Shown: one piece after another, positions 1 through 59,840 of the stretch
Numbering within the stretch: the first letter of the stretch is position 1
Layout: each line of letters begins with the position of its first letter
From: a virus
DNA: 64,000 nt
Direction: 5' to 3' (one strand)
Virus record (IMG/VR): IMGVR_UViG_3300030329_005959
Coordinates: 1-64,000 of that record
Program-made: the position numbers and the translations under genes
The notes under the pieces: generated by a model
Database searches by the model: none
What the model was told of the DNA's origin: nothing
The model's input: only the letters and a program-made list of their open reading frames with translations

Positions 1-292
1 CCCGCCATTCTACCGCCTTCTCAGCGGGGGTAGAACACCGCTCCCAGTGCGCCTCGTATGGGTCAGGCCCACCCGTGCTGGCATCGGTCAGCTCGGGATA
101 CGTCTCGACCGCCTCCTCACGGGAGGCGAAGCCGCTCACCATGCCAGCGACCTGCCGCTCCCCGATGGAGAGGGCAAGTTGCTCGCTCGCGGTGCCGCCC
201 ACGATCCACCGCTTCATGGTGTCCGACCGCTGGGCAGCGGTCACCACGTAGTAGTTGTCGGACGGGCGGGTCATGATGTCTGTCTCAGTCAT
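1..292 (-). CDS. Unknown small protein, 3' end outside window
   Basis: An open frame runs leftward from ATG at 292 to the window edge (97 codons, no stop), so the C-terminus is missing. The N-terminal part is polar, with a run of two Tyr after about residue 12 and an Arg/Trp-containing basic patch near residues 26-30; I recognise no domain. The start is chosen because a sigma70-like promoter ends exactly 6 bp upstream, which would put the transcript start on the A of the ATG. Codon use is GC-rich (41 of 60 bases in 61-120 are G or C), unlike genes after 1986. Function unknown. Confidence 0.6.
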   Translation of the reverse strand, partial: MTETDIMTRPSDNYYVVTAAQRSDTMKRWIVGGTASEQLALSIGERQVAGMVSGFASREEAVETYPELTDASTGGPDPYEAHWERCSTPAEKAVEWR

Positions 293-21621: not shown

Positions 21622-24600
21622 ATGCCATTAAGAGTTCCAGCAGTAGTAACAGGATTAGAGGCCAGCATTGAAGCTCAAGCCAAAAAAGCGGGTCGGAATC
21701 TTAAGTTAAATTTAGGCACTAGCGCCAAAAGCATCGAAGGTTTATCTCAACCTTTGGGACGCATTACTGGAAAGGCAGACCAGTTTACCAAGTCAATGGA
21801 AGCGGCCAACGCAAGGGTGTTGGCTTTCGGTGCTTCTGTGGGCGTCCTGTCCGCTGTCACCCAAGGCTTTAAAGAATTGGTAACTACTACCATTCAAGTA
21901 GAGAAACAACTAGCGAGTATTAACAGCATCTTAAGAGTAAGTAATGAGCAACTGGCTGGCTTTAAAAAAACAATTTTTGCAGTAGCGAGAGACACCGAGC
22001 AATCATTTGATACGGTTGCTACGGCGGCATTAGAATTAAGCCGCCAAGGATTAAAGGCTGAAGAGGTCGTAAAGAGATTAAATGATGCTATGATATTAAG
22101 CCGTTTATCGGGACTTGGAGCATCTGAAGCGGTGGCTGGTTTAACTGCGGCTATTAACTCTTTTGGTAAAGATACGACAACAAGCACGGAGGTGTTAAAC
22201 AAACTCTCTGCCGCATCTATTAAGGCCGCTGTTTCCGAAAGAGACCTAATTGAAGGTATTAAGCGATCAGGTTCGGTAGCAATTCAGGCGGGTGTGAGTC
22301 TGGACGAATTGGTCGGCGTAATTAGTGCAGTCCAAGAGAAAACTGCGCGGGGTGGAGCTGTTATCGGTAACTCGTTTAAAACTATTTTTACTCGTATTCA
22401 GAGTCTTGACAAACTTAAGACTATGCAAGATCTGGGGGTTCAAGTAACAGATGCCTCGGGAGCCGTATTAAGTGGAACTAAACTCATACAAAACTTAGCG
22501 AGGACTATAGAAACGCTGCCCGATGCTAAAAAGCTGCAAATAGCAGAGAATTTGGTGGGTAAATTTCAAATTGCTCCCTTCTTGGCTATCCTTGATGATT
22601 ATAATTCCAAAACATCTAAGGCTATTGAAATAACAGATGTAGCCGCGAATGCGACAAATGAAGCTTACACACGAAATGTGGCTTTAAACAAAACACTGTC
22701 GGCGGCTATTAATGAGGCTAATGTAAATCTTAAAGAGTTAGCCGAGACTCTTGGCAGCATTGGAATTACTGACAGTTTAAAAGGTGTTTTGGGTTTCTTT
22801 AATACCTTAGTAACAAATATTAAAGAGCTTTTAGAAGGAGAGGGTATTGGCTCAGATTTTGCCAAAGGAATTGTTAAAGGTATCGGCGGGGTGTTGGCTG
22901 GACCTGGGCTTGCTATTTTTGGGGCTATTATAGCCAAGTTAACTATTGATTTGGTAAAATTTGGAACGGGATCTTTAAAGACTTTCTTCGGGCTAAACAA
23001 GGCCGCAAAAGAACAAGCTACCCTTCAAGGGCAAATAGCATCAACCCTTTTAGGCAACAAAGGTATACAACAGCAAATTTTAGCTATTGAAAATAGCACA
23101 CTAAGCACCGAACAAAAACGGGCCGCTCAAATTAAATTCTTTACAACCGCTTTAAATGAGCAGTTGGGAGTAATGAGCAAAATGCAAGGTATTGCGTCTC
23201 GGATAGCTCCTGGGGTAGCAGCGGGGACCAGACGGCGGGGGAGGGCGGCAGGAGGATATATTCCTAATTTTAGCGCGAGCGGAAGTTATGGAAGTGAAAG
23301 CTCCGACATAAAGCGCGGTGTGGGAGGCGCTCCTTCTTCTGCGCGTCCCGTGGTTATACCAAACTTTAATTTTGGGGGTGGTAGGCGTGGGGCCATGGTA
23401 GCCAATAGCAGTGAATATATTGTTCCTAACTTCGCTGGGGGTAGTGGGTCGGCTATTTTTAATCAAAATATGGTGGCTTCGATGGGTTTGCCAACTGGGG
23501 CTAGAAAGATCAGAGCGGCCAGAGGGTATATTCCTAATTTTGTTGATGCAGATTTTCAGGGGACAGGATATAGCGAACAACAACTAGCAAACGCTAATCT
23601 TCTCATGGAAGGAAAAGATGGGAAAACTTTAAAGAACAGAAGCGACATTGCAAGAATAGCTAAAGGAGTAAGAAATCCAAAAGCAGCAGGTATAGCGGAG
23701 GGAGTTTTGAAGAAGTTAAAAGTAGCGGAGAAATTACCACTTCCACATATAAACAGGGGAGGGGGACTATATGGGATGTTGGTTAATGAGCCTGTAGGCA
23801 CTCCCATGACAAAAATGTTTGTGGGCGAAACTAAAAGGGGGGTATCTGCTAGTAAAAGTAAAACGCCGAATAGTAAAGCAATAGTCGATGTTCCTATTTT
23901 TGGTGTTAACCCATCGAAAGTAAAAGGAAAAACTAATGCACAGTTAGTGGACGAGTTGACTGAGCAGCTCCTTACAGAATCTTTAGATTTTGCTAGAATG
24001 GCTGGAGGGGGAGTGATCCCTAAAAAGGGGGTAAGGGCTAAAGATATTGAAAACAGCCTGAACGAAGGATCTGCGCGATCTGCGGCTGGCTCTGTTTTCG
24101 AGAGCGGATTAGCTGCTCTTCTTGATGCTGAAGCTTTTAAAGATTTCAAGGGAAGGGCTGCGACCTCTTTAATGGATTTTAAGACCGATCAAATTAAAAA
24201 TATTAAAAATGCTCCACTTTTTGATATCCCCAAGAGCAAAGCTAAAAAAGGATTAGAAGCTAAGGGGGGAGCTGGGGATTCTTTAATTGGTTCTACGGCA
24301 GAGAAAATATATAAAATTTTATTTAAAGGTAAAGAGGCGTTTACTTCAAAAAAGGGGAGTGCTGCTTCTGGCTATATCCCCAATTTCGCTGGTGCTTTAG
24401 AAGCCGCCGTAGCCAGAGAAAACGCTGCTGGTCTTCCCATCAGCCAAATTAGAATAAACCAAAGCGGCAAACTCCGCAATGCTGGCAACCCTATGGGGCT
24501 TGCTGTTACCAATACCAGAGATGAGCCTACTGGTGCCGTTCCGAATTTTGCTATTATATCCCCAGAAGCAAGAAAAGAGCATATGGCGAGAGACTCTAAC

Positions 24601-27600
24601 ACGAAAGCTCTAGACAGCAGCACGGAAGAAATAAAGAAAAACAAAAAAGCCCAAAGAGACTTGCTCGGTCCAATTTTCGCCGTTCAAGCTGGTTTAAGTT
24701 TTTTAAGTGCAGCTACCTCTGAAGCCGAAGGCGGGGTAGGAAGATTTACAAACCGTATAACTGAGGCTTTTTCTGGGGCTACTACCGCTGCTTTTGCTGG
24801 GGTAGCCATTAGTGATTTCGGAGAGTCCTTAAAAGAAGAAGGGGGCAAATTAGGCGAAGCGTTTGGTGGAGCGCTCGGCAAGATCGGAATGTGGGGCGCT
24901 GCTATAGGAGCGGGGGTTGCTATCTGGAAAGGGGCGGTCCAAGTATTTGAAGACGTTACAGGAATTACCGATAAAAGCAAAGATGCTCTTGATATATTAG
25001 CGGAGGCAACTAACCAAGCATCGCGCTCTATGGAGGAGCTTAACGTTGCTCAACAAAGACGATTGAAGCTAGAAACTGAAAACCTTATACCACAAAGGTC
25101 GGGGTTTTTTAGCAGACTAGGTGGGCCAAACCTAGCGGAAATGGCAACTGGGCTAAAAGGAGATCCAGATTTTGGAAATGTGCCTATACGCACACAATCA
25201 CCGCAAAAAAGATTTCAGGACAGATTCGTCACTACTAGTGGTTCTTGGGGTAAGAAGTTCGAAGAGCTTGAGTTCAAAGGGACTCAGACTCAGGATATAA
25301 TGAGGTCAGCTATGGAGTTTGGACTTCTACAAGGATTGAGTCCAAGGTTTTTAAGAGGGGAAAGAAGGAGGTTAGGTTTTCAACAAACATTTACCCCCTT
25401 CGCAGGAGGAGGGATTGACGACGATAAGTGGAACACGGGTCCACTTTTGGGGCGACAAACAGGACCAAATGCGAGGGTCATGACCAGCACATCTGTTGTT
25501 CCAGCTGGAGAAAGACTTGAATTTGCTATTGATATAGACGAAGCAAAGGCGTTCGCAGAGTTTATGCAAAGCGCTGGGGTAGGCAGAATAACGTCGGAGA
25601 TAAAAGAGGTTTTAAAAGATATAGATTTAAGACCCGAAGGTGGTATTGTTGATCCTAGAGCAATTGGTATTAGACGTTCAGATGAGTTCTGGGAGGACAT
25701 GCTGAAGATGAGTGACGAGGACCAAGCAAAAGTGGAAGCAAAACTGGGGCTAGGACAAGGATTGGCGGTAGAAACTCTTAAAGAAGTAGAGAAGAGGCTT
25801 AACTTAGAGGGTAAAATAGACCTAGAATATGTTAAACAATTAATTAGTCAGAAAGCACTAAACGACGAAAAAAAACGCGGAACCCAAAACGAAGAAGGAT
25901 TTAATAAAATACAACAAATTCGTGCAGAACAAGGAAAAGCGCTTATAAAGTTGGCTGTAGCAAGAAAAGAAGCAGAGCTAACTAATACAGACGCCCTTAA
26001 AAGTCAATTAAAAATAGCAGGTATTTTGGGGGACAAAACAACTGAAGAGTTAAGAATTATCAAAGAAACTATAGCTTTAAGGGACTTAGATAAAGAGCTT
26101 ATAAAAGAAAGACTTAATGTTTTAAACGAAGCGGCAGACTCATTGGAAGGAATAGCGATAGACGAAGAAAAAGTAAAGGATGTCGTAGCTTCGATTGTAG
26201 AGCTGTCAAAAGAAGATCTTATAACTAAGGATAGAGCTGTAGAGATTTTAAGAGAAACGCTGGATATAAATACCCTTACTGAAGACGGTATGGAGGCCCA
26301 GCTTACCAAAATTCTTAAACTAAATGCGGAAAAATTAAAGGGTTTAGGATTAGACAAAGAAGCTTTGCAGGTGCTTTTAGAGTCTGAGTTTGCCGCTGAA
26401 AGGAGAAATCAAGCGATTTTAAATGCAAACCAGCAGCTATCTAATTTAGCTGCGAGAGAAAAATTCGGTGTAGATCTTACCCAAACTCAAAACCTTAATG
26501 CTTTAAGGGCTACCCAAACGAACCTCACAAGAGAAAAAGAGGCTGGAATAACTACTCCCGAAAGAAGAGACGAGGTAGAACGACAACTAAGAAGAATTAG
26601 AACTCAAATTTTGCGAGGCGAAAGAACACAGCGCGAGGCTGGCTTTTTAGAGCAAGCGCGGGGCCTTTCGAGAGCTAAAGGAGTAGGATTGGCTGGTGCT
26701 GTTCAGGGAGATAATTTAAGAGCACAACTAGAAGGAGCGGGTGATTTTGATGCGGCTATTAGCTTTCTTCGCATGTTTAAGGAGTCGCTTCCTGATAATG
26801 CAGAAGGGAATGCTCTTAGAAAACAAATAGATGATCTAGATAGAAAGGTAAAACTAGAAAGACTAAATAGCGATGCGACAATTAAAACGGCTGAAGCAGA
26901 AGAACAACTAATAACAGAGAGGGTTAAAGCTTTTAATGAATTAGAAAAACAAATTATTCAATTACAAAGACAAGGAGGTTTGGGACTTCGGTTTGCAGAG
27001 CCCTCGAAAATTAGGGCGGCGAGAAGGAGGCAGGAAGCAGTTGATGAAACTAGAGAGGGTGGCAGGTTTGAAGGATTAAGGCCCGATGTCGCAATATCAG
27101 TAAGCGACCGACAAAGAAGCGTTTTCCAAAGGTTAAGTGAAAGGGCAGAGTTTGATCCTTTAACACAATACGACACTCTTGCCACTAATATTGAAAACGC
27201 GGCTATAAACTTTAAAGATACGATCTCCGATGCGATGGTTGATGCCATAATTCAAGGAGGAAGCTTAAAAGACATTCTCACCAGCGCTGCTACTGAGTTT
27301 TTCACCACCATGTCAAAAGCGTTCATGCGTAGCGCTGTGGATCAAATTGTTGGATCAGGATTAGGCGCTTTTGCTGATCAGAAGAATAGCGGCGGTCTTA
27401 TTACAGGAGGATCGGGCAAGAAAGATGATGTTCCCACATTGCTTACGGGTGGTGAATTTGTGATTAGAAAAGGTTCTGTGCTGAGATATGGAAGGGATTT
27501 CTTAGAGGATCTTAATGCTGGGCGCGTTCCCCAAATGCAAAGAGGGGGTTACTTTACCGCCCCAGGAACTTTTGGACAGGGCGCAATCACAGGAAAGGAA

Positions 27601-28710
27601 AATCTTTTAAGGTATACGACACAATCTCATACAGGGTCTCAATTTGATAAGGTTATGGGCGGGTCTGGTTTTGCCTCAGTAGCGCTAGGACCGCAAAGTG
27701 CCCAAATGACCATGTTTGCTAGACGGACAAGTCCACAGTTCCAGACAGAACAAGAGTCGAAAAGAGAATCTCTTAATCTTTATCTTCGTCAGCTTAATTA
27801 TGAAGAAGAGTTAAGAAGACAAGAAGAGGAGCGGAAGAGGGCTTTAAAGGGAGCTATTTTGTCGGCGGTTGTGTCGGTGGGCATGAATCAATTTGCCACG
27901 GGCTTCGGTGAGTCAATGAAAGCTGGCCAAGGATTTGGAAAATCATTGGGGGCTGGCTTTACTGGCTTTGAGCAAGGTGGGGAAAGGTTCGGAGGGTTGC
28001 TTAATTTCAATCCTAGCACAGAGGCTCTTCCTTCCACGCGAGAGGGATTTAAACCCGCAAAATACAAAAACTTGGGTCAATTCTGGAGCGGCACTGGCGT
28101 TGGAGGTGGCACTGGCGTTGGCGGTGGCGGTTTCGGTAGTTCTTTTATACAGGGTATTCAAAACGTCACACAACAAGGCGTTAGGGCAATAGAAGGAGCT
28201 ACAACAGCAGCTCTTGAGATGTTGGGCTTTACAGATGTCGCTGGAAACCCTGGAGTTCTTCCTCCAAAGAGAGCATTCAAAGGTTTTTGGAAATGGGGGC
28301 CAAGAGGAAGTAATAACTTTGTAAGGGACATGGCCACTGGTGGATATATCTCTCCCGCTGCTGGAATAGATACAGTCCCCATCAATGCCACGGGGGGAGA
28401 ATTTATGATGAACGCTGCTGCTACCCAACGCATCGGGCGTGGGAATCTCGCTGCGCTTAATTCGGGAGGAGGTCAAGAGGGAGGAGGCGACGAGGCGATA
28501 GTCTCTAGACTTGACGAGCTTATTGCTGTGACTAATGGAAGCGGAGAAACCATTATTAACATCACTATTAATTCTGACGGAACCGAAACTCAAACCCAAC
28601 AAGGAAACGGAGAAGAAGAGCAGCGTAATTTGGCTGGAAGAATCAGAGATGTGGTGAGACAAACAATTGAAGAAGAAAAAAGATTGGGAGGTTCATTAAG
28701 AAGGGTTTAA
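21622..28710 (+). CDS. Tape measure protein with embedded nuclease-like domain
   Basis: 2362 residues, by far the longest gene, setting tail length. Residues about 1-330 are the conserved TP901-type tape measure domain (LSRQGLKAEEVVKRLNDA; ARGGAVIGNSFKTIFTRIQSLD). Membrane-like helices lie near 410-450 and 1020-1120. Residues 540-980 hold six PNF motifs (P548, 580, 602, 638, 920, 974) that punctuate inserted modules. One of these has E827, D868 and E879-A-K881, the layout of a PD-(D/E)XK nuclease. Long coiled coils fill 1350-1800. The C-terminus has two TGGEF segments (about 1950 and 2256). It lies after the chaperones and before tail-tip genes. Confidence 0.9.
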   Translation: MPLRVPAVVTGLEASIEAQAKKAGRNLKLNLGTSAKSIEGLSQPLGRITGKADQFTKSMEAANARVLAFGASVGVLSAVTQGFKELVTTTIQVEKQLASINSILRVSNEQLAGFKKTIFAVARDTEQSFDTVATAALELSRQGLKAEEVVKRLNDAMILSRLSGLGASEAVAGLTAAINSFGKDTTTSTEVLNKLSAASIKAAVSERDLIEGIKRSGSVAIQAGVSLDELVGVISAVQEKTARGGAVIGNSFKTIFTRIQSLDKLKTMQDLGVQVTDASGAVLSGTKLIQNLARTIETLPDAKKLQIAENLVGKFQIAPFLAILDDYNSKTSKAIEITDVAANATNEAYTRNVALNKTLSAAINEANVNLKELAETLGSIGITDSLKGVLGFFNTLVTNIKELLEGEGIGSDFAKGIVKGIGGVLAGPGLAIFGAIIAKLTIDLVKFGTGSLKTFFGLNKAAKEQATLQGQIASTLLGNKGIQQQILAIENSTLSTEQKRAAQIKFFTTALNEQLGVMSKMQGIASRIAPGVAAGTRRRGRAAGGYIPNFSASGSYGSESSDIKRGVGGAPSSARPVVIPNFNFGGGRRGAMVANSSEYIVPNFAGGSGSAIFNQNMVASMGLPTGARKIRAARGYIPNFVDADFQGTGYSEQQLANANLLMEGKDGKTLKNRSDIARIAKGVRNPKAAGIAEGVLKKLKVAEKLPLPHINRGGGLYGMLVNEPVGTPMTKMFVGETKRGVSASKSKTPNSKAIVDVPIFGVNPSKVKGKTNAQLVDELTEQLLTESLDFARMAGGGVIPKKGVRAKDIENSLNEGSARSAAGSVFESGLAALLDAEAFKDFKGRAATSLMDFKTDQIKNIKNAPLFDIPKSKAKKGLEAKGGAGDSLIGSTAEKIYKILFKGKEAFTSKKGSAASGYIPNFAGALEAAVARENAAGLPISQIRINQSGKLRNAGNPMGLAVTNTRDEPTGAVPNFAIISPEARKEHMARDSNTKALDSSTEEIKKNKKAQRDLLGPIFAVQAGLSFLSAATSEAEGGVGRFTNRITEAFSGATTAAFAGVAISDFGESLKEEGGKLGEAFGGALGKIGMWGAAIGAGVAIWKGAVQVFEDVTGITDKSKDALDILAEATNQASRSMEELNVAQQRRLKLETENLIPQRSGFFSRLGGPNLAEMATGLKGDPDFGNVPIRTQSPQKRFQDRFVTTSGSWGKKFEELEFKGTQTQDIMRSAMEFGLLQGLSPRFLRGERRRLGFQQTFTPFAGGGIDDDKWNTGPLLGRQTGPNARVMTSTSVVPAGERLEFAIDIDEAKAFAEFMQSAGVGRITSEIKEVLKDIDLRPEGGIVDPRAIGIRRSDEFWEDMLKMSDEDQAKVEAKLGLGQGLAVETLKEVEKRLNLEGKIDLEYVKQLISQKALNDEKKRGTQNEEGFNKIQQIRAEQGKALIKLAVARKEAELTNTDALKSQLKIAGILGDKTTEELRIIKETIALRDLDKELIKERLNVLNEAADSLEGIAIDEEKVKDVVASIVELSKEDLITKDRAVEILRETLDINTLTEDGMEAQLTKILKLNAEKLKGLGLDKEALQVLLESEFAAERRNQAILNANQQLSNLAAREKFGVDLTQTQNLNALRATQTNLTREKEAGITTPERRDEVERQLRRIRTQILRGERTQREAGFLEQARGLSRAKGVGLAGAVQGDNLRAQLEGAGDFDAAISFLRMFKESLPDNAEGNALRKQIDDLDRKVKLERLNSDATIKTAEAEEQLITERVKAFNELEKQIIQLQRQGGLGLRFAEPSKIRAARRRQEAVDETREGGRFEGLRPDVAISVSDRQRSVFQRLSERAEFDPLTQYDTLATNIENAAINFKDTISDAMVDAIIQGGSLKDILTSAATEFFTTMSKAFMRSAVDQIVGSGLGAFADQKNSGGLITGGSGKKDDVPTLLTGGEFVIRKGSVLRYGRDFLEDLNAGRVPQMQRGGYFTAPGTFGQGAITGKENLLRYTTQSHTGSQFDKVMGGSGFASVALGPQSAQMTMFARRTSPQFQTEQESKRESLNLYLRQLNYEEELRRQEEERKRALKGAILSAVVSVGMNQFATGFGESMKAGQGFGKSLGAGFTGFEQGGERFGGLLNFNPSTEALPSTREGFKPAKYKNLGQFWSGTGVGGGTGVGGGGFGSSFIQGIQNVTQQGVRAIEGATTAALEMLGFTDVAGNPGVLPPKRAFKGFWKWGPRGSNNFVRDMATGGYISPAAGIDTVPINATGGEFMMNAAATQRIGRGNLAALNSGGGQEGGGDEAIVSRLDELIAVTNGSGETIINITINSDGTETQTQQGNGEEEQRNLAGRIRDVVRQTIEEEKRLGGSLRRV

Positions 28711-37638: not shown

Positions 37639-39276
37639 ATGTCTAGTAAAAAGATCTCTGTGTGCGCTTTATGGCGCGATAGCGAATCCCATATTAATAG
37701 AACTTTAAATCAATTTGAAGATTTAGAAGAGTTGGATTTTGATTTTGAATATTATTTTTATGAAAATGACTCTAAAGATAATACTTCTACTTTGCTCCAA
37801 GCGTGGCTTAAGGACAGAGAGGGCATATTAAAAACTGAGACTTTGGGTGCTACAAAATTTGGCAGCACTCATGATCTGGAACGTATGCAGCTTCTGTCTG
37901 ACTGTAGAAACAAATGCAAAGATTTACTGTGTGATACTGAATCAGAATATACACTACTTGTTGATTCGGATATTATTTTTAATAAAGAAAATTTATTAGC
38001 CCATTTTGAGACCATCAAATCACTGGATGATTGTGTTATGTTAACTCCTAATGTGAGACAAAACATACCTGATCTTATCCAACATAATTCGCAAGATTCT
38101 TATTACGACATTTTACCTTTCTGGGACAGCGAAAAGAAAAATGCTTTAGGCTGGTCAAATTGCCCCTTCAGGAATGGCATCGACATTATGAATTGGAACC
38201 TTGGTAAACCCATTAAATGTTTTTCAGCCTTTGGTGGCTTCGCTTTAATAAAGACAGAGGTTCTTAAAAAAATCAATTGGTCTACAATAGGGGCTAGCGA
38301 GCATGTTAATTTTTGCCAAGAAATTAATGATTACGGCTCTATTTATATTGATCCCAAAAATAAAGTTTATGCCGAAGTAGAATTAGATTATTTACATTTA
38401 GAGGCTTTTAAAGAGACTGCTGTGGATAGGAGCAGGAAACCAATAACAATTGATCATGAAATTTTTACGAGTCAGAACTATAAAAAATTAAACTCTATAA
38501 AAAACCCAAAGGAGAAATCTAAGTATATTAAAGATTTGTTTTTGGAAAAAACAACCACCCAAACTGAAAAGCTTAAATTTCTTAAAAATTGTTTTCAAGG
38601 AGAAAAGGCTGTCCTAGTCTCCTGCGGCCCCTCTATTACTGAGCAAGATGAAGAAAAATTAAAATCCATCTTGGAAACCCGATTAGTTCTATCAATTAAA
38701 CAAAGCTTTGATCTTTTCTCCGAATATGTGGACATCCACTTCTATAATTGTGCTAACTATAAAAAATATGATTATTCTATACATAAGCCAATTGTATTTG
38801 AGGCTTCTACGGTTTATGGAAAGCTAGGGGAGTGTGATTTACTCTTTAAAATACCACAAGGAATGGATTATGATAACTCTTTATGTTCTCACAAAGACTT
38901 GGATTCTTGGACTTTAGAAAAGCAACCTTTTGAGAGGTGCTATGGCCCAGGAATCGAGTATGAAATAGTGTTATTTGCTGTAGAACATTTAGGCATATCC
39001 GAGTTAGTTACAATAGGTTGGGACAATAAACTTATAAACAACGGTGACGCTGATAGACAACATTTTTACGATAAAAACACAGGTTCGAACGAACAATGGA
39101 TTCAGGCGAACAAGGTTTCTAGCTCAGAGTTTTCTGTTAGCAAACTAAGCACAGAAGAAGAAATGACATCTGGCTTTATAATGGATTTTTATAATTGGCT
39201 TAAATCTAAAGGATGCGAGTTAAAAATAGTTTCTGAAATCAGCCCCGCTCCAAACGAAATTAAAACAACCTTATGA
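37639..39276 (+). CDS. GT-A glycosyltransferase fused to Maf/DUF115-like domain
   Basis: 545 residues in two halves. Residues 1-250 are GT-A-like: ISVCALWRDSESHINRTL start, YYFYENDSKDNT, and LLVDSDIIF (about 110-118) as the DxD-type metal site. Residues about 315-530 resemble the DUF115/Maf family: GEKAVLVSCGPSITEQDEEKL, then LVLSIKQSFDLF. Maf proteins transfer nonulosonic acids to Ser/Thr of flagellin. First gene of the island; ATGA overlap with the next. A bifunctional enzyme adding the pathway's sugar to a protein or glycan is likely. Confidence 0.65.
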   Translation: MSSKKISVCALWRDSESHINRTLNQFEDLEELDFDFEYYFYENDSKDNTSTLLQAWLKDREGILKTETLGATKFGSTHDLERMQLLSDCRNKCKDLLCDTESEYTLLVDSDIIFNKENLLAHFETIKSLDDCVMLTPNVRQNIPDLIQHNSQDSYYDILPFWDSEKKNALGWSNCPFRNGIDIMNWNLGKPIKCFSAFGGFALIKTEVLKKINWSTIGASEHVNFCQEINDYGSIYIDPKNKVYAEVELDYLHLEAFKETAVDRSRKPITIDHEIFTSQNYKKLNSIKNPKEKSKYIKDLFLEKTTTQTEKLKFLKNCFQGEKAVLVSCGPSITEQDEEKLKSILETRLVLSIKQSFDLFSEYVDIHFYNCANYKKYDYSIHKPIVFEASTVYGKLGECDLLFKIPQGMDYDNSLCSHKDLDSWTLEKQPFERCYGPGIEYEIVLFAVEHLGISELVTIGWDNKLINNGDADRQHFYDKNTGSNEQWIQANKVSSSEFSVSKLSTEEEMTSGFIMDFYNWLKSKGCELKIVSEISPAPNEIKTTL

Positions 39277-40295
39277 AGACTTTTTTCAAAAACAAAAAAG
39301 TGTTAGTAACTGGAGGAACAGGCTCTCTCGGACAAAAACTTGTAGAAAGATTGCAGTCTTATGATGCTTTACCTATAGTTTACAGCAGAGATGAAGGCAA
39401 ACAGGCTCTCAACTTTAAAAACAATAACAACTTAATCAAAATTATTGGGGATGTGAGAGATTTTGACAAACTTAATACATCTCTCAAAATTCACAAACCC
39501 GATTTTATTATACATGCTGCGGCCTTAAAGAGAATTGATGATATGGAGTTTTATCCTGATGAATGTGTCAAAACAAATGTATCAGGATCGGAAAACGTGG
39601 CGAGAGCCGCCCTGCAAAACGAGATTCAGAAATGTATATTAGTATCCACCGATAAAGCCTGTAAGCCAATTAATGTTTATGGGTCTTCTAAATTTTTAGC
39701 GGAAAGATTTTTTACTAACTATGATTACAATTCGGATACGACAATCTTTTCGTCAGTTAGATATGGAAATGTGATTGCCTCCCGAGGTTCTTTTATACCA
39801 CTATGGGTTGATGCCATACAAAAAAACGAGAGTATAAAAATTACATCTACTGAATGCACCAGATTTCTGTTCACCTTAAAAGATTCTGTAGATACAGTTT
39901 TAAGCTCACTCCAAAACAGTGTGGGAGGGGAGGTATTTGTTCCCCAGATCAACTCTTATACACTTCCTGTTTGCGTTAAAGCTCTTGAATATTTGTTTGA
40001 TAAAAAAGCCAAGACTCACATTATCGGACTGAGACCTGGAGAAAAGCTGCACGAAGATATGTTAGCTGAAACAGAACTTCCGTTTACTTATAAGGTCGAG
40101 GACCATGATTTTTTGCAATTATTTAATGAAGAGCCTACCGAGCGTGTTGATTTATTGCAAATAAGACCCCAATATACCAAAAAAACATATCAAACTTTTT
40201 CGAAATATGAGGGTCCGCACTTCAACTCAGAACTTTGGGTTAAGGAGGATGTCGAAGAATTATCACGATTGATTGAGTCAGGCTTAAAATGTTAA
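39273..40295 (+). CDS. pseB: UDP-sugar 4,6-dehydratase (PseB/FlaA1-like)
   Basis: 340 residues. NAD-binding VTGGTGSLG (about 11-19), IVYSRDEGKQ, HAAALKRIDDMEFYPDE, STDKACKPINVYGSSK (about 128-143, YxxxK site) and RPGEKLHEDM are the order of inverting UDP-GlcNAc 4,6-dehydratases such as PseB. These begin pseudaminic acid and related sugar synthesis by making a 4-keto-6-deoxy sugar. Overlaps neighbours by 4 and 7 nt. Confidence 0.8.
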   Translation: MKTFFKNKKVLVTGGTGSLGQKLVERLQSYDALPIVYSRDEGKQALNFKNNNNLIKIIGDVRDFDKLNTSLKIHKPDFIIHAAALKRIDDMEFYPDECVKTNVSGSENVARAALQNEIQKCILVSTDKACKPINVYGSSKFLAERFFTNYDYNSDTTIFSSVRYGNVIASRGSFIPLWVDAIQKNESIKITSTECTRFLFTLKDSVDTVLSSLQNSVGGEVFVPQINSYTLPVCVKALEYLFDKKAKTHIIGLRPGEKLHEDMLAETELPFTYKVEDHDFLQLFNEEPTERVDLLQIRPQYTKKTYQTFSKYEGPHFNSELWVKEDVEELSRLIESGLKC

Positions 40296-41545
40296 CATCA
40301 GAAGAAATATTATGGCAAAACGCCATTAGACTAATGCCGCGAGGGACGCAAACAATGAGTAAGTGTCCCGATCAGTTTGTAGAGGGGGTCTATCCCAAGT
40401 TCGCTAAAAAATCTAAAGGAGCTTATATCCAAGCTCTAGACAACAAGTGGTATTTGGACTACATGTGTGGGTTGGGTCCAATTATTTTAGGCTTTAATCA
40501 CAAGAAAACAAACAAGGCTATATCCAACCAACTCAAAAAAGGAATTATTCATTCTCTCCCTACGCTGTTGGAGCAAGAACTGGCTGCTTTAATATGTGAT
40601 AGTGTTCCGTGTGCGGAGCAGGTTAGATTTGCTAAAAATGGAACTGATGTAGATCTCGCTGCGGTGCGAATAGCCCGTTCATACACTGGTAGAGAACATA
40701 TTGTTAAGTGTGGATATCATGGATGGGGAGACTGGCACGGCATCACTCTTCGTCCCCACGGCATACCTAAGTGTCTAGAAGAATGTGTTTCTGAGTTTGA
40801 ATACAACAACCTCGCCAGTTTAGAGAGCGAACTTTCTAAGCGCCCTGTGGCGGGGGTAATAATGGAAGCTCAAGCTCTGACAAAACCACAAGAAGGCTTC
40901 TTGCAGGGGGTTAAGGACTTATGTAGGAAGCATGGAGCGGTGTTGATATTTGATGAAGTAGTCACAGGGTTTCGTTGGGCACTGGGGGGCGCTCAAGAAC
41001 ATTATGGAGTCACTCCTGACTTATGTTGTTTAGGGAAAGGAATGGCTAACGGAATGCCTCTTAGTGCCATCGCTGGAAAAAAAGAATATATGCAAGAACT
41101 TAATCATGCATTTTTTTCTATGACTTTTGGAGGAGAATGTTTATCTTTAGCCGCGTCTATAGAAACAATAAAAGAGCTTAAAAATAAAAACTATAAACAT
41201 ATTTGGGATCTAGGAAACAAGCTGGACAAAGGAATAAAAGAAGCCGCCAAAAAGCACGGGTTAGAAATTAATTTTAGTGGAAGCGCCCCTCGACACAATC
41301 TATCATTTAGCGACAAATACGATGATCCTCAAGGCATGAAAGCTCTTTTTTATCAAGAAATGTTCAGAGAGGGTGTTCTTTTCCCTAATGTCATTTATAT
41401 ACAATTTTCTCACACTTTGAAAGACATAGAAAAAACTATAACAGCAGCAGACAAATCTTTTTCTTTTCTGAAAAAAAATCTCAATAAAATAGATTTAGTT
41501 TTGAGAGGAAAAAGGAGCATTAACATTTTTAGAAAAAACACTTAA
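40289..41545 (+). CDS. Class-III PLP aminotransferase (GSA-aminomutase-like)
   Basis: 418 residues, close in layout to glutamate-1-semialdehyde aminomutases: MPRGTQTMSKCP near the start, YHGWGDWH (about 145), IFDEVVTGFRWALGG (about 220-235) and the PLP lysine in CLGKGMANGMPLSA (about 250-263). In sugar islands such proteins take the place of DegT-type aminotransferases (PseC). It should aminate the keto-sugar made by the preceding enzyme. It overlaps both neighbours. Confidence 0.75.
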   Translation: MLTSEEILWQNAIRLMPRGTQTMSKCPDQFVEGVYPKFAKKSKGAYIQALDNKWYLDYMCGLGPIILGFNHKKTNKAISNQLKKGIIHSLPTLLEQELAALICDSVPCAEQVRFAKNGTDVDLAAVRIARSYTGREHIVKCGYHGWGDWHGITLRPHGIPKCLEECVSEFEYNNLASLESELSKRPVAGVIMEAQALTKPQEGFLQGVKDLCRKHGAVLIFDEVVTGFRWALGGAQEHYGVTPDLCCLGKGMANGMPLSAIAGKKEYMQELNHAFFSMTFGGECLSLAASIETIKELKNKNYKHIWDLGNKLDKGIKEAAKKHGLEINFSGSAPRHNLSFSDKYDDPQGMKALFYQEMFREGVLFPNVIYIQFSHTLKDIEKTITAADKSFSFLKKNLNKIDLVLRGKRSINIFRKNT

Positions 41546-42486
41546 TGAAAGAAAAAATTAAAGAAATAGAACAGGCTCTTGATGCCCTTTTGCTCGATCA
41601 AGAAAACAGAGTAGATAGGTTTGATGCAAATTACATTGATGACTTTCACTTTATTCTGAAAGAAACCCATTCAATTAAAAAAACCGAAGACGAACACAAC
41701 GACAGTTTCAACAAACTTAAAAAGCTCGTTGGTGGGAATTCAAAATCTGTTAAAGAACTAGGCGAAACTATAAAAACCATAGAAGGATTAAACATATCTA
41801 AATATAAGCCAAAGGAATCTGACTCATCTACTAAATCTGAGCATAAGTATGATCAAACTTCTAGTTGGGACTCAGCTAAAGACCTCAAAGTTAATGACCA
41901 AAATAAAGATAAACTTAATCAACTTCAGGTCGATTATTCGGTTCTTAGTCATGCTAATCAAAAAGTCGCCCCTTCAGTTTTTTGGAGGCGCGACGGTTTA
42001 ACTGATGAAAAAAACCAGCTATTTAAGGATTTTTGTGCTGGAAAAAAAGTCCTATGCATAGGGCCAAGATGGGCCGAAGAGGTTTCATATATATCTAACA
42101 CCTTTAAGTGTGAAGCTCTTGGGTTAGATCTTTTTTCGAATAACAAAGATCTAGTAAAAGTCGGTGATATGCACGATATGCCTTTTGAGGATAACACCTT
42201 CGATGTAGTATATCAAAAGAACACTTTTAACAAATCTTACGACATTAGAAAATGTTTAGACGAGTGCGTGAGGGTTTTAGTCAATGGTGGCGTTATAATT
42301 TCTGACGAACTATTAGGATATAATATTGGAGTCAATGAAATTGCCCGAACGAGTATAAACAGGAATTCTTGGTATACCTCCTATCTTGATAAAACAGTAG
42401 ATGAGATTTTGTGTGACAAAGAAGTGTCCATAAACGCAAGCTGGGTGGATCTTGTTGGACTATATGCTGTTAAAATAAAAAAATAG
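41545..42486 (+). CDS. SAM methyltransferase with coiled-coil N-terminus
   Basis: 313 residues. The first 130 are charged and helical with no fold assigned. The C-terminal 160 are a class I methyltransferase: KKVLCIGPRWAEEVSYIS (motif I region, G-rich loop altered to GPRWAEE), LGLDLF, GDMHDMPFEDNTFDVVYQKN (motif II/III region) and a GGVIISDE strand. The acceptor is unknown; sugar O-methylation is suggested by context. ATG shares its A with the previous TAA. Confidence 0.65.
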   Translation: MKEKIKEIEQALDALLLDQENRVDRFDANYIDDFHFILKETHSIKKTEDEHNDSFNKLKKLVGGNSKSVKELGETIKTIEGLNISKYKPKESDSSTKSEHKYDQTSSWDSAKDLKVNDQNKDKLNQLQVDYSVLSHANQKVAPSVFWRRDGLTDEKNQLFKDFCAGKKVLCIGPRWAEEVSYISNTFKCEALGLDLFSNNKDLVKVGDMHDMPFEDNTFDVVYQKNTFNKSYDIRKCLDECVRVLVNGGVIISDELLGYNIGVNEIARTSINRNSWYTSYLDKTVDEILCDKEVSINASWVDLVGLYAVKIKK

Positions 42487-42488
42487 CT

Positions 42489-43178
42489 ATGAAGTCTATA
42501 GAAAACACTCTTTTTTTTATTCAAGCGAGGACTCAATCGACAAGAGTGCCTAACAAAATGTTAAGGCCGTTTGCTGATTCGAACTTATTTGAAATAGCTG
42601 TTAAAAAACTACTCAAGTCAGAGGTCATACCTAAAGATAATTTTTATTTATCTATAATGGATGAGGAGTTGATTAAAATAGCAGAAAAGTATAATGTAAA
42701 CTATTTTACGAGAAGCGAAGAGTCTACTCAAGAACCAGTTACTTTACCGAAAGTGTTTGAGTGGCACGACAAGCTACCGTTTACACACTATGTGAATGTA
42801 AACGCTTGCAATCCACTTCTTAAAATAGAAACCATAGACAGTTTTATCCAAAAATTTTTACAAACCAAATCAAGGGGACTGTTTGGTGTCTTTGAGAAAA
42901 AAACTTTTCTTTTTGGGTGTAATCACTCAATGTTAAATGAGTTTTATGGAGGCGAAAGACATTTATCCACACTGGAAACCAAGTTTGTGGAGACCTGTTA
43001 TGAGGCAGCTCATTCTTTGTATGCTGGTTGCGTAGAAGATATCAAAAAGCACATTTATATGGGCTCATTTACTAGCGAAAATGATCCTGAGTTCTTTATT
43101 CTTGATGAAAAAGAGTGTCTAGACATTGATTGGCCTTGGCAATTTGAAATGGCGGAAAAACTTTATTCAAATTCATGA
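42489..43178 (+). CDS. CMP-sugar / cytidylyltransferase-like protein (NeuA/SpsF type)
   Basis: 229 residues. IQARTQSTRVPNKML (about 11-25) is the nucleotide-binding signature of NeuA, KdsB and SpsF-type cytidylyltransferases. VNVNACNPLLKIETID near 104-119 is the second conserved stretch, and DIDWPWQFEMAE near the end resembles the metal-binding DxDxxxD region. It should activate the nonulosonic acid made by the NeuB homologue as a CMP-sugar. Gene ends 4 nt into the next. Confidence 0.75.
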   Translation: MKSIENTLFFIQARTQSTRVPNKMLRPFADSNLFEIAVKKLLKSEVIPKDNFYLSIMDEELIKIAEKYNVNYFTRSEESTQEPVTLPKVFEWHDKLPFTHYVNVNACNPLLKIETIDSFIQKFLQTKSRGLFGVFEKKTFLFGCNHSMLNEFYGGERHLSTLETKFVETCYEAAHSLYAGCVEDIKKHIYMGSFTSENDPEFFILDEKECLDIDWPWQFEMAEKLYSNS

Positions 43179-43984
43179 AAGCAGTAATAATTGGTGGAGG
43201 CTCCATTGGTCAGCGACATGCGGGGAACTTAAAAGGTTTGGGTGTTAATACTAGAATTGTAGATATTGATGAAATAGAAACCATAGACTCTATCTTAAAT
43301 AATGGCTTTGATTTTGGTTTGGTTTGCTCACCGAATCTATATCATATAGAACATTGCACAAAATTAGCGGAATATAACATTCCAACCTTCTGTGAAAAAC
43401 CTTTTTATTCTGACGTTGACGGAGTGGCTTCTCTTTTAAAAACTGTTGAAGAAAAAAAATTAATCACAATGGTAGCGGCGAACTTAAGATTCGCGGACGA
43501 GGTGAAATCTATTGATTCTACAGCTAGCTATATTAATGTCCACTTTGGCTATGACCTAAAAAAATGGAGACCAGATTCGGACCACTTGCTTTCTTATAGT
43601 GCCAATAAAGCTTTAGGTGGAGGCATTCTCCTAGACGCTATACACGAACTAGATTACCTTTATTTTAAATTTGGTAAAATACAAGACATTTTTTATAACA
43701 AAAGCAAGTTAACAAATATCACAAATGATACCGAAGATTTGGTTGTCGGGCGCATTTATTTCGAAAGCGGAACTATAGCTGATTTTTCTCTTAACTATCT
43801 CTCGGAGGATTATCAAAGATATTACGATATTTTAGAGGACGGCGTTTTAAAAAGAAAAAACATAAATATCAGCAACCAGATGTATATAGACGAAATGACT
43901 TATTTTATTGATTGCGTGGTATCAAATACCCAAGGTATGAATAGTTTTAATGAGGCAAACACACTGTTAACTACAATTATTTAA
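43175..43984 (+). CDS. Gfo/Idh/MocA-type oxidoreductase
   Basis: 269 residues, shorter than the usual 330-370. N-terminal Rossmann fold GGGSIGQRHAGNL (about 7-19), then CSPNLYHIEHC and CEKPFYSD (the conserved EKP) near 63-85. The C-terminal part has LSYSANKALGGGILLDAIHELDYL (about 138-161) with catalytic-type HELD. It probably reduces or oxidises a sugar intermediate with NAD(P). Located between cytidylyltransferase and methyltransferase in the island. Confidence 0.8.
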   Translation: MKAVIIGGGSIGQRHAGNLKGLGVNTRIVDIDEIETIDSILNNGFDFGLVCSPNLYHIEHCTKLAEYNIPTFCEKPFYSDVDGVASLLKTVEEKKLITMVAANLRFADEVKSIDSTASYINVHFGYDLKKWRPDSDHLLSYSANKALGGGILLDAIHELDYLYFKFGKIQDIFYNKSKLTNITNDTEDLVVGRIYFESGTIADFSLNYLSEDYQRYYDILEDGVLKRKNINISNQMYIDEMTYFIDCVVSNTQGMNSFNEANTLLTTII

Positions 43985-44809
43985 ATGGAAAATTGGGTCG
44001 AAAATAAAAAAGTGCATGATGCAGAATGGGGTATGCTCTATGCTTATTGTATGGCTAATGCTGCCAAATATACCAACATAAAAGAAGAGTGGGCGAATTT
44101 ATTCAGTTTTGAAATGGGGCACCCCCTTACCTTGAGATATATTTCAGAAGGTAAGCATAAGATTAACGGGAAGGAAGGATATTTTAAAAGCAAAAATAAA
44201 CATCTGCAAAACAGAATTGATAAATATATCACCCCAACGACTGATGCTATACTAGACTTAGGCGCTGGCTGGGGAAGGCACAGCATTCAGTTGGCCTTTA
44301 ATAATCCCGATTACAATATAATCTCGGGCGAACTATCAGATACAGGGAAGGCTATCCTAGAATATTTTATCGAAAAATATGATTTGTCTATCACAATCGT
44401 TGATTTTAATTGGCATGACCATAAATCTATAATTGATTTTTTGTCTCAGCAGTTTAGCTACGACGAAGGCAAAACTTGGTCTAACTTTAAAGAGATAATT
44501 ATTTTTACTAGCAATGCTATAGAGCAGATACCCAACATTAAGTTGGAATTCTTTACAGATTTATTGAGTTTGCCTATTAAAAAAATTAGCGCTATTCACA
44601 TCGAGCCTGTGAAGTTTCAATATGATAATGCTGATTTTCCCTTCTCCGAGGAAAATGCTCATTACAACCGAAACCTTAAAACGGTATTAGATAGTTTAGT
44701 ATCTTTGGGTCTTATTAAGATCAAAGATGTGATACCGCTCTATTGGGGGCACAGTTTAAATATAGCATCACAAAACAACACTCTAATAGAATGGGTAAAA
44801 CTTTTATAA
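43985..44809 (+). CDS. SAM-dependent methyltransferase
   Basis: 274 residues. ILDLGAGWGRHSIQL (about 94-108) is a standard motif I, followed by an acidic end of strand 2 (ISGELSDTGK) and IIIFTSNAIEQIPN (motif-IV-like). The N-terminal 85 residues are a helical cap. A methyltransferase with a HIEPVKFQYD segment near the end suggests a small substrate. The last 19 nt overlap the neuB-like gene. Confidence 0.65.
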   Translation: MENWVENKKVHDAEWGMLYAYCMANAAKYTNIKEEWANLFSFEMGHPLTLRYISEGKHKINGKEGYFKSKNKHLQNRIDKYITPTTDAILDLGAGWGRHSIQLAFNNPDYNIISGELSDTGKAILEYFIEKYDLSITIVDFNWHDHKSIIDFLSQQFSYDEGKTWSNFKEIIIFTSNAIEQIPNIKLEFFTDLLSLPIKKISAIHIEPVKFQYDNADFPFSEENAHYNRNLKTVLDSLVSLGLIKIKDVIPLYWGHSLNIASQNNTLIEWVKLL

Positions 44810-45786
44810 TAGCTGAAGCAGGGGCAAATCACAATAGAAATTTTGACCAAGCGCTTTCTTTAATAGATGTAGCAAAAGAATCAGGGGCAACTGCGGTAAA
44901 GTTCCAAACTTATTCTTCAGAAACCCTCTATGCAGCAAGCACCCCAGATTTTGCGGGTTACAAAAACATAAGCAAACTAATAAAAGATATAGAGCTTCCC
45001 AGATCTTGGCAAAAAGATCTGAAGGATTACTGTGATGAGAGTGGGATTGAGTTTATGTCTACGCCTTTTGACGAGAAAGCTGTAGAAGAGCTTGTTGATT
45101 TAGGGGTTAAAAGACTTAAAATCTCAGGCTTTGAATCTACAGATCCTCGCTTTGTAAAATTAGTGGCGTCTACGGGTTTGCCAATTATAATGAGCATTGG
45201 AATAGGGTTTGACCTTAAATACGTAGAGTCTTTTTTAGAAATTTTTTCAGCGTATAACAATCACCTAACATTACTACACTGTAACAACGCTTACCCCACC
45301 CCCATGCAAGATGCAAACCTGCGGCAGATGGGGGTTTTATCGACGTATAAAGGTGTTGACGCAGTAGGTTTTTCTGACCATACAATTTCGACCCTAACCC
45401 CTTCTTGGGCGGTTGCTTTAGGAGCAACTGTTATTGAAAAACATTTTACTATAAGCCGCAAACTACGAGGACCAGACCACCCTTTTGCTCTTGAGCCTCT
45501 TGAACTTAAAGAAATGGTGGACAACATCCACTTGGCTGAACTAGCAATTAAAAACAAAGGTTCTGGCTTTACAAAATCTGAGAGGCCGTTTTCTAAAGCA
45601 ATGAGATCGGTGGTCTCTCTAGGGTCTATAAAAAAAGGAGAGGTTTTAACAGTTACTAACACTACTACCAAAAGGCCGTTTTTGGAGAATTCGGTTCCTG
45701 CATTTGATTATTTTAAGGTATTAGGTAAAATAGTTACAGAAGATATAGAAGACGACCAAATCTTAAACAAAAATCAAATCAAATGA
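44791..45786 (+). CDS. neuB: Nonulosonic acid synthase (NeuB/PseI/LegI family)
   Basis: 331 residues from ATG 44791; an earlier in-frame start is rejected because the family begins with TFIIAEAGANHN. TIM-barrel motifs in order: FQTYSSE, MSTPFDE, LKISGFEST, LLHCNNAYPTP, VGFSDHT and GPDHPFALEP. A SAF domain follows (RSVVSLGSIKKGEVLT, about 267-282). The enzyme condenses phosphoenolpyruvate with a six-carbon amino sugar to form a nine-carbon acid. GPDHPFALEP is nearer NeuB/LegI than PseI sequences, by eye. Confidence 0.88.
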   Translation: MGKTFIIAEAGANHNRNFDQALSLIDVAKESGATAVKFQTYSSETLYAASTPDFAGYKNISKLIKDIELPRSWQKDLKDYCDESGIEFMSTPFDEKAVEELVDLGVKRLKISGFESTDPRFVKLVASTGLPIIMSIGIGFDLKYVESFLEIFSAYNNHLTLLHCNNAYPTPMQDANLRQMGVLSTYKGVDAVGFSDHTISTLTPSWAVALGATVIEKHFTISRKLRGPDHPFALEPLELKEMVDNIHLAELAIKNKGSGFTKSERPFSKAMRSVVSLGSIKKGEVLTVTNTTTKRPFLENSVPAFDYFKVLGKIVTEDIEDDQILNKNQIK

Positions 45787-46610
45787 GCGACTTACAAAAA
45801 AGAATTGTAGAAGAATTAAAAGAAGACGGGATTTCTATCACTCATGTAGACGAATTATTTGGAGATACCTCTCGAAACTATTTTTCTAATTCTTTGTTGT
45901 ATTTTAATGAATTTCTATCCTCTCCACACATTAAAGAAAGATGTGATAGGATATCTTCAGGAAATCCCATCCAAGACAAGAATAAATGGTTTGAGGTAAC
46001 GGTTTATGAGTATTTGAACAGGGGCCTGAGTCTGGATGACGGAGATGTAATAAGAATGAACTTGTCTCCCGAAATTCTTTCTATCGCGGAAGCTTTTTAC
46101 GGGACTCTCCCTAAAGTTAGGAACATTCTTACTTGGGTTCACCCACAAAACCCCTCTACATCAGAAATTGGATCGCAGCGTTGGCACCGAGACAAAGAAG
46201 ATGAATCCATTTTAAAAGTTTTTATTTTATTTTCTGAAGTTGGCCCTAAAAACGGTCCCACGCAATTTATCAAGAAGTCGCAAGCGGGTGGAAAATATCA
46301 AGATATTTCATCTTTAGGAGGCGACGGATATGGGGGGTTAAACTATGAAATTCCAGAGGGAGAGCTTGTCTCTTGTGAGGGGACGGTAGGGACAATAATT
46401 TTTATGAACAACAATGGGGTTCATAAAGGAGGGTTGGTAAAAGACGGTATCAGAAGCCTAACTCACGCTTGTTTTCTAAAGCCTACAGCTCCCTTTCTCA
46501 ATAATGGAGTGTTGCCCTGTTTTGAATATGATTCCCAAGTTAATCTTTTAGACAGAGAGGGTGAGTCCTATCAAAATTTAAGCGATACCCAAAAATTTGT
46601 TCTCTCATGA
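45783..46610 (+). CDS. Phytanoyl-CoA dioxygenase-like Fe(II)/2OG oxygenase
   Basis: 275 residues with the PhyH-type iron site: H and D in QRWHRDKED (about 136-144) and distal H in GVHKGGLV, followed by a GIRSLTHACF segment with the 2-oxoglutarate Arg. Substrate unknown; a hydroxylation of the sugar or its acyl group is plausible in this island. ATGA-type overlaps join it to the genes on both sides. Confidence 0.7.
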   Translation: MSDLQKRIVEELKEDGISITHVDELFGDTSRNYFSNSLLYFNEFLSSPHIKERCDRISSGNPIQDKNKWFEVTVYEYLNRGLSLDDGDVIRMNLSPEILSIAEAFYGTLPKVRNILTWVHPQNPSTSEIGSQRWHRDKEDESILKVFILFSEVGPKNGPTQFIKKSQAGGKYQDISSLGGDGYGGLNYEIPEGELVSCEGTVGTIIFMNNNGVHKGGLVKDGIRSLTHACFLKPTAPFLNNGVLPCFEYDSQVNLLDREGESYQNLSDTQKFVLS

Positions 46611-47269
46611 CCGCTTTGGTAATATCGCAAGATAGACCTTGGACTCGCCAACTAATTAATAGTCTGGATAACGAGGAACATGAGATTTTTTATTCTTCTT
46701 TAATATCTCAGGAGTTAATTGAAAATATCGGCCCTGATTGGATATTTTTCTTTCACTGGTCCGAAATTGTTCCTAAAACTATATACAAAAATTATAAGTG
46801 TTGCGTAATCCACACTGGCAATTTACCTAAGGCGAGAGGAGGAAGTCCTCTGCAAAATCAAATATTAGAGGGCGTGACCGACACCCAAGTAAATATTATT
46901 GAAATGTCAGGTGAGATAGATGCTGGCGGGATATATTGCTCTGCTCCTATTTCTTTACAAGGGAGTATTACTGATATATGGCTTTCAATAGCTGATGTAA
47001 CCTCTAATTTAATAAACTTTTGTATGTCTGCAAACCCGAAAGCGGCTCCACAAAGGGGGAAGTCCCAAACATATAAACGCATTAAAAATAATAGTGTTAA
47101 CTTTAATATTGAAAAGCCACTTTCCTTCGTTTATGATCAGATTAGAATGGTGGATGATGATTTTTATCCTAAATGCCATTTGGACATCAATGGTTTTAGG
47201 TTAGAGTTTAGCAGGGCAAAACTGAAAACAGATAAAATTTTAGCCGATGTTACAATTACCAAAAAATAG
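46607..47269 (+). CDS. Sugar N-formyltransferase-like protein
   Basis: 220 residues. CVIHTGNLPKARGGSPLQNQIL (about 66-87) matches the catalytic segment of methionyl-tRNA/sugar formyltransferases, and IDAGGIYC supplies the Asp. The canonical Asn two residues before the catalytic His reads as Val, as in a formyltransferase subfamily I recall from sugar islands. Size equals a single catalytic domain. It should transfer formyl from N10-formyl-THF to an amino sugar. It overlaps the deacetylase gene by 23 nt. Confidence 0.65.
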   Translation: MTALVISQDRPWTRQLINSLDNEEHEIFYSSLISQELIENIGPDWIFFFHWSEIVPKTIYKNYKCCVIHTGNLPKARGGSPLQNQILEGVTDTQVNIIEMSGEIDAGGIYCSAPISLQGSITDIWLSIADVTSNLINFCMSANPKAAPQRGKSQTYKRIKNNSVNFNIEKPLSFVYDQIRMVDDDFYPKCHLDINGFRLEFSRAKLKTDKILADVTITKK

Positions 47270-47912
47270 CGACATATTAATTTTAGCTGCTCATCCCGAT
47301 GATGAAACATTAGGGTGTGGCGCTACTGCGGCTAAACTCTCAGAGGAAGGTCACAATATCCACTTAATGACATTCACTGACGGGGTTGATGCCAGAGACG
47401 AAAAAGGAAAGGAAAACAGAAACAACAGGCTGGGCCGTATCTCCGAGATACTAGGAATTAATTCGTTTAATCATGGAGATTTTCCCGATAACAGCATGGA
47501 CGTTGTTCCCTTGTTAAAACTTTGCAAATACATAGAAAATCACTGTCCTTTTGCACCTGATTTAATTTTTACCCACCACCCCGATTGTCTTAATATAGAT
47601 CATGAAATGGTTTACCGAGCCACTTTAACCGCCTTTAGGCCGCAGTTTGGGTTAAGACAAACAATTTTGTCTTATTTTGTCCCGTCTTCAACCGATTACA
47701 ATCCTCAGGCTAACTTTAACGGGAATGTCTATGTTGACATCAAAGGCTATGTGGATAAAAAGCTAAAAGCGTTATCGGTTTATGACGAAGAGATGAGAGA
47801 ACACCCTCACAGCAGAAGCTACACTAATGTAAAAAATTTGTCTTCTACATGGGGAAGCGAAGTCGGCTTAGAGTCTGCTGAGAAATTTCAACTAATAAGA
47901 TCTGTTTCTTAA
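47247..47912 (+). CDS. PIG-L (LmbE-like) sugar deacetylase
   Basis: 221 residues. The zinc site AHPDDE (about 14-19) and the second ligand in THHPDCLNIDH (about 111-121) are clear. The family removes N-acetyl from sugars such as GlcNAc. Coupled by overlap to the formyltransferase, the pair could replace an N-acetyl by N-formyl on the nonulosonic acid precursor. Start at ATG 47247; no later Met precedes the zinc motif. Confidence 0.85.
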   Translation: MLQLPKNSDILILAAHPDDETLGCGATAAKLSEEGHNIHLMTFTDGVDARDEKGKENRNNRLGRISEILGINSFNHGDFPDNSMDVVPLLKLCKYIENHCPFAPDLIFTHHPDCLNIDHEMVYRATLTAFRPQFGLRQTILSYFVPSSTDYNPQANFNGNVYVDIKGYVDKKLKALSVYDEEMREHPHSRSYTNVKNLSSTWGSEVGLESAEKFQLIRSVS

Positions 47913-47913
47913 A

Positions 47914-48444
47914 ATGATAGAAGGCAAGAAAGTAAATTTAACTAAAGTTGACAGAGAGAATATCGAACAACTTAGGGAATGGAGAAACAACCCGTTGTTG
48001 AGAAAATATTTTAGAGAACACCGAGAGATCAACAAAGATAATCAATCTTGTTGGTATGAAAGCAAGGTGTTGGGAGATCCTAATCAATATAACTTTGAAA
48101 TAAGGGCCAACAAAAACTCTGAACTAATCGGGCATTGCGGCCTTTATTATATTAATTGGATTAGCAGGACTGCTGAGTTTGGCATTTATATTGGAGATAG
48201 AGCCTATAGAAATGGAGGTTATGGTTCGGACACCCTTAGAACTTTAATTGGTTATGGATTTAAAGATTTAAATTTAAATAGAATTTGGTGCGAAGTTTAC
48301 GACAACAATAAATCCATTGAAGTATATAAGCATATTGGCTTTAAATACGAGGGCACATTAAGACAAAACTATTACAACGAAGGCCGCTATTGGGATGCTC
48401 ATGTTCTCGGTATGCTGAAAAGTGAATATGAATCAATCTCTTAA
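47914..48444 (+). CDS. GNAT N-acetyltransferase (PseH/RimJ-like)
   Basis: 176 residues. Features of the GNAT fold in order: LREWRNNPLLRKYF (about 17-30), GHCGLYYINWISRTAEFGIYIGD, the acetyl-CoA loop RNGGYGSDTLR (about 101-111), and a terminal IGFKYEGTLRQNYYNEGRYWDAHVLGML segment typical of RimJ/PseH. PseH acetylates the 4-amino sugar in pseudaminic acid synthesis, a role that fits here. Next gene overlaps by 17 nt. Confidence 0.8.
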   Translation: MIEGKKVNLTKVDRENIEQLREWRNNPLLRKYFREHREINKDNQSCWYESKVLGDPNQYNFEIRANKNSELIGHCGLYYINWISRTAEFGIYIGDRAYRNGGYGSDTLRTLIGYGFKDLNLNRIWCEVYDNNKSIEVYKHIGFKYEGTLRQNYYNEGRYWDAHVLGMLKSEYESIS

Positions 48445-59834: not shown

Positions 59835-59840
59835 ATTATG

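Follow-up and report, generated by a model that had tools for sequence, protein, structure and literature searches.

The longest open reading frame in the tail region of the window, by which we mean the whole 64,000-nucleotide stretch that was analysed (positions 1 to 64,000 of the IMG/VR virus record IMGVR_UViG_3300030329_005959), is continuous, occupies 21622..28710 on the plus strand, as do the features of the gene described below, and encodes a protein of 2362 amino acids. Its identification as a tape measure protein (TMP) is based on this length and on the homology of its N-terminal domain, with matches to Pfam PF10145 (PhageMin_Tail, E=7e-27) and to several PHROG tape measure families. 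Within the TMP lies a module of 288 residues (aa 635-922, 23524..24387), hereafter the cassette, whose length includes the two GYIPNF motifs that bound it, the upstream one at aa 635-640 (23524..23541) and the downstream one at aa 917-922 (24370..24387), the latter followed by an alanine. The sequence holds an additional GYIPNF upstream of the cassette, at aa 545-550 (23254..23271), and the logo of 700 copies of the motif gives a consensus of roughly A-A-[GS]-G-[YF]-[IV]-P-N-[FY]-A. The block directly 3' of the cassette (24388-24550, aa 923-976; LEAAVARENAAGLPISQIRIN...NPMGLAVTNTRDEPTGAVPNFA) ends with another PNF, and many relatives have the same block. The window TMP contains one cassette, and some relatives several, for example L146 and L325. 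Elsewhere in the window, a phage-borne sugar-nucleotide operon at 39273-50235 encodes Polysacc_synt_2, a class III aminotransferase, a methyltransferase, CTP_transf_3, a GFO_IDH_MocA oxidoreductase, NeuB, PhyH, a formyltransferase and a GDP-mannose dehydratase, and looks like a pathway for nonulosonic acid or a similar glycan; an 809-aa Clp-type double AAA ATPase is encoded at 59838-62264, adjoining the gene of the DNA polymerase III alpha subunit.

The motif scans were seeded by the motif itself or by the window TMP, and the share of TMPs that carry no motif lies outside their reach. Among the matches listed, 150 ORFs had two or more motifs and a stretch of over 350 residues ahead of the first one; the TMP N-terminus was present in 148 of them, so that in this sample the GYIPNF motif belongs to TMPs. 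A scan of bacterial genomes for GYIPNFA returned 107 loci, with long multi-motif ORFs at just four of them (L210, L222, L259 and L276), and most of these loci are therefore chance occurrences; the four contigs, binned to MAGs of Verrucomicrobiales, Flavobacteriaceae (two) and Woesebacteria, possibly give hints about hosts or are mis-binned phage contigs.

The proposal of the first-pass annotation that the region forms a separable module with PNF motifs at its borders, here at aa 638 and 920, is borne out by the variable modules of relatives and by swaps that occur at the motifs. Over 820 pairs of TMPs, mean identity was 71% in the N-terminal part, 25% in the module, 31% in the next 400 residues and 44% at the C-terminal end; since low identity extends beyond the module to the rest of the TMP, it is the swaps, and not divergence as such, that mark the module. 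The TMPs of L024 and L027 share 90% identity in the N-terminal part and 84% in the 400 residues that follow the module, but 12% in the module itself, while the L027 module shares 90% with that of L020. At the DNA level L024 and L027 align collinearly along about 22 kb with 73-86% identity, the main unmatched block being the cassette (about 730 bp in L024), with three smaller gaps elsewhere (about 250, 260 and 135 bp in L024). On both sides the matches stop within the GYIPNFA codons, and the same holds for L030 and L049. As judged from these comparisons of sequences, a cassette slot exists and is swapped at the motifs among relatives.

A search of viral contigs with the complete TMP as query found 50 loci, in which the inter-motif modules are about 170-370 residues long. 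A first alignment (A1) comprises 36 distinct modules from these TMP relatives, picked by TMP homology, the active-site motif playing no part; it omits the first slot of L037 and that of L039, whose modules are unlike the others, and includes the second slot of each of these TMPs. The module sought in other tape measures was thus found, with an identity to the window module of 16-31%. In A1, D852 and K881 are invariant, E827 is E save for one D, position 879 is E or D, and K895 is nearly invariant. Two motif pattern scans and two module searches yielded at least 275 non-redundant inter-motif segments, nearly all of those scanned having no match to a known family. A profile of the module core, from which the motif ends had been trimmed because a profile that included them matched nearly everything, was matched by at least 146 of these segments, and 141 with good coverage form the second alignment (A2). 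A1 is the less biased evidence, since A2 was picked with a profile that contains the conserved columns. Among the 141 modules, the predicted metal-site glutamate E827 (24100..24102) is 96% E and 3% D, the predicted metal-site aspartate D852 (24175..24177) is 99% D, the (D/E)xK element E879-A-K881 (24256..24264) has 57% D and 43% E at its first position and 99% K at its last, the supporting residue K895 (24304..24306) is 89% K and 11% Q, and G823 is 100% conserved.

The first-pass annotation had read E827, D868 and E879-A-K881 as the E...D...ExK metal site of a PD-(D/E)XK nuclease. All of these residues are present (first nucleotides of the codons at 24100, 24223, 24256 and, for K881, 24262), and E827, K881 and an acidic residue at 879 are kept in relatives. 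D868 (24223..24225) varies, being 65% G and 3% D in the 141 modules, so that it is ruled out as the catalytic aspartate; the conserved aspartate is D852, which had been overlooked. The spacing of the pattern is no argument either: E-(30..50)-D-(6..16)-ExK occurs five times in the TMP, where shuffled sequences average 3.5, and it turns up in 34% of modules after shuffling, counts so near to the observed that the pattern alone proves nothing. What exceeds chance by far is conservation among relatives at E827, K881 and E/D at 879, as estimated from the alignments, and not at D868. PD-(D/E)XK sites typically show D and E replacing each other in the (D/E)xK element, and K and Q doing so in the helix that follows. 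In both sets of modules E, D and (D/E)xK are conserved in this order, and the helix that comes next (model helix 169-184) bears K or Q at the position of K895; at the level of primary structure this set has the signature of a PD-(D/E)XK metal site. The dN/dS values of 0.22-0.58 in close pairs of modules indicate, again from coding sequence, that these pairs are under purifying selection.

The fold had been named beforehand as a point on which the nuclease assignment could fail. A first structure model built on 36 sequences was too poor to be of use (pLDDT 57, no matches) and was discarded. The AlphaFold2 model of aa 718-916 (23773..24369) on the 141 sequences of A2 reached a pLDDT of 79.7 and a pTM of 0.72. 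It begins with three strands and some helices, places E827 on a helix and D852 next to an isolated bridge, and continues through another helix to a strand that carries E879-K881 and then a helix that carries K895. The strand order of this model differs from the alpha-beta-beta-beta-alpha-beta core, and Foldseek retrieved no PD-(D/E)XK structure from the PDB and nothing significant from BFVD, a negative result that is provisional, given a model of moderate confidence. The 141 modules gave four single, chance-level matches in Pfam, none of them to a nuclease, and no match to PHROG profiles; the module profile found no nuclease among PDB sequences, and a tblastn search of isolated phages, with the window module and with ten modules joined together, gave no match. 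The hhalign comparisons with Mrr and Hjc, made with small alignments, were not significant, E, D and K falling in register with Mrr but at a probability of 1.6%. A profile search that covered 297 bacterial genomes from a single phylum, run without a positive control, was empty. When the slot families were ranked by profile against the window core, ranks 2 to 6 looked PD-(D/E)XK-like by eye, with weak scores, rank 1 being probably artefactual and due to a single long joined segment. Since the residue signature is present and a corresponding fold and profile were not found, we describe the module as one that would work like a PD-(D/E)XK site, and do not file it as a member of that superfamily; the original assignment is thereby retained for its residues, with D852 in place of D868, and is so far unsupported for its fold.

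Other slots hold different cargo. In L146 (8742-9362, minus strand) a staphylococcal nuclease domain (PF00565, E=2e-9) lies between two GYIPNF-type motifs of the TMP, and a slot of L102 holds a GNAT acetyltransferase (E=7e-5), both above the Pfam cut-off. Leads below the cut-off or recognised by eye are P-loop (L039 and others), HAD-like DxDGT, kinase-like, HExxH, ParB_N-like and SLT-like cassettes. The P-loop cassette (GPSGAGKST; L039:11879-12385 and about 19 related segments, among them L067, L068 and L072) sits in a separate slot upstream of the nuclease-like one. Two related-looking cassettes with an FE helix and a D occur in L280 (9068-9619, minus strand) and at aa 173-366 of the L104 TMP, both with DAH at the place expected for (D/E)xK. 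The exchange of unrelated enzymes in one type of slot suggests a conflict with hosts or rivals.

We propose that the TMP bears an interchangeable enzyme cassette between two GYIPNFA motifs, and that the cassette of the window is a divergent metal-dependent nuclease, acting in the manner of PD-(D/E)XK enzymes through E827, D852, E879 and K881 with the support of K895, a reading that on balance we lean towards accepting. It draws on the conserved residue set, the dN/dS values, the clean swap, the staphylococcal nuclease and GNAT in like slots, the TMP N-termini of 148 of 150 multi-motif ORFs, and two precedents: a TMP-related effector from an injection system of bacteria carries a proven endonuclease domain (PMC11126660), and the TMP of lambda, in the course of injection, was labelled close to ManZ at the inner membrane (PMC13190303). 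Against it stand the lack of a Foldseek, BFVD, Pfam, PHROG or PDB match, the hhalign results, and the divergence of the C-terminal TMP. The TMP would then probably have a second function, that of bringing enzymes into the host cell, and the cargo of the slots would most likely be interchangeable enzymes delivered with the phage DNA; both catalysis and delivery we infer. As part of the TMP, the cassette most likely rides in the tail tube and, by analogy, would most likely be exposed to the host at DNA injection, arriving together with the phage DNA. The site formed by E827, D852, E879 and K881 would cut DNA or RNA, and the delivered cassette would attack nucleic acid of the host or of rivals, or counter host defence. 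The GYIPNFA motif may be a linker for docking, release or cleavage of the cargo, and its DNA could also supply shared sequence for recombination.

The cassette could also be a delivered enzyme other than a nuclease, in which the E/D/K set serves another metal- or phosphate-handling activity on an undescribed fold. We consider this unlikely but worth weighing, for neither the fold nor the family has a match and clearly different enzymes occupy other slots; the D/E exchange at 879 and the K/Q exchange at 895 nevertheless follow the typical PD-(D/E)XK pattern, and PD-(D/E)XK-looking families, if with weak scores, rank beside the module in the profile comparison. It is improbable that the module is a non-catalytic, structural or regulatory part of the tail, concerned with length, assembly or the DNA channel, whose conserved residues hold the fold: its place inside a structural protein and a model without a known enzyme fold would suit such a part, but in a family whose mean column identity is 13%, the very few columns that are conserved include charged residues, and slots of the same type in other TMPs contain SNase and GNAT domains. 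We give very little credence to a nuclease that serves the phage's own DNA, for instance in end processing or packaging, as do T4-like virion nucleases with an REase fold that act in packaging (PMC7824862), since modules that are unrelated, or 12% identical, would not replace one another in otherwise collinear phages if their role were housekeeping. Least credible of all is a selfish element in the TMP gene, either a homing endonuclease or an insertion of the intein type, for although homing endonuclease genes often interrupt TMP genes (PMC10448857) and the insertion borders are sharp, the frame is unbroken and without an intron, the motif has no intein splice-junction residues, almost every full-length TMP among the first relatives has a filled slot, and non-nucleases also occupy the slot.

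If the nuclease-cassette reading is correct, many uncultured phages from the environment would use their longest structural protein as an effector carrier, the GYIPNFA motif would provide a simple handle for listing its cargo, and the delivery of enzymes through the tail tube by long-tailed phages, with the host targets that they counter, would become open to test. A wider proposition, which we advance tentatively and with somewhat more doubt than belief, is that of a widespread, unnamed delivery system in which TMPs carry swappable enzymes, GYIPNFA marks the boundaries as a site of docking, release or cleavage, and the cargo met most often belongs to a new family of nucleases whose PD-(D/E)XK-like site sits on another fold. 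The letters of the motif had no occurrence in the literature searched, the scope of which excluded most subscription papers and preprints, and the novelty of the cassette system is accordingly provisional. With PD-(D/E)XK nucleases such as Mrr, Hjc and others, the module has in common the order and kind of its residues (E, D, (D/E)xK, K/Q), and it differs in having no fold or profile match and, as modelled, a helix between D and (D/E)xK and three strands before the E helix. Polymorphic toxins, including the MuF toxins of temperate phages (PMC3482391, PMC5576092), likewise combine a constant carrier with a variable enzyme part, but theirs is C-terminal and the TMP slot is internal; nor was an adjacent immunity gene or other neighbour that changes with the cassette found in L024 and L027, the one pair examined closely, which are otherwise collinear around it. 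The Tme protein of a Streptomyces contractile injection system (PMC11126660) is similarly a TMP-related protein with an endonuclease domain, where ours is a predicted nuclease; that domain is EndA-like (DRGH / H-N-N), C-terminal and part of a bacterial injection system, whereas here an internal, swappable slot of phages holds a PD-(D/E)XK-like residue set. The closest concept is that of polyvalent proteins, described from phages and conjugative elements (Iyer et al, 2017; PMC5512222): large proteins, presumably injected along with the DNA, that combine unrelated enzyme domains, among which GNATs, protein kinases, peptidases and DNases are reported; the term 'tape measure' is absent from that work. 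The TMPs described here would resemble them as large, presumably injected carriers of unrelated enzyme domains, with one cassette in the window TMP and several in some relatives, and differ from them in that the TMP itself is the carrier and the repeated GYIPNFA motif bounds its cassettes.
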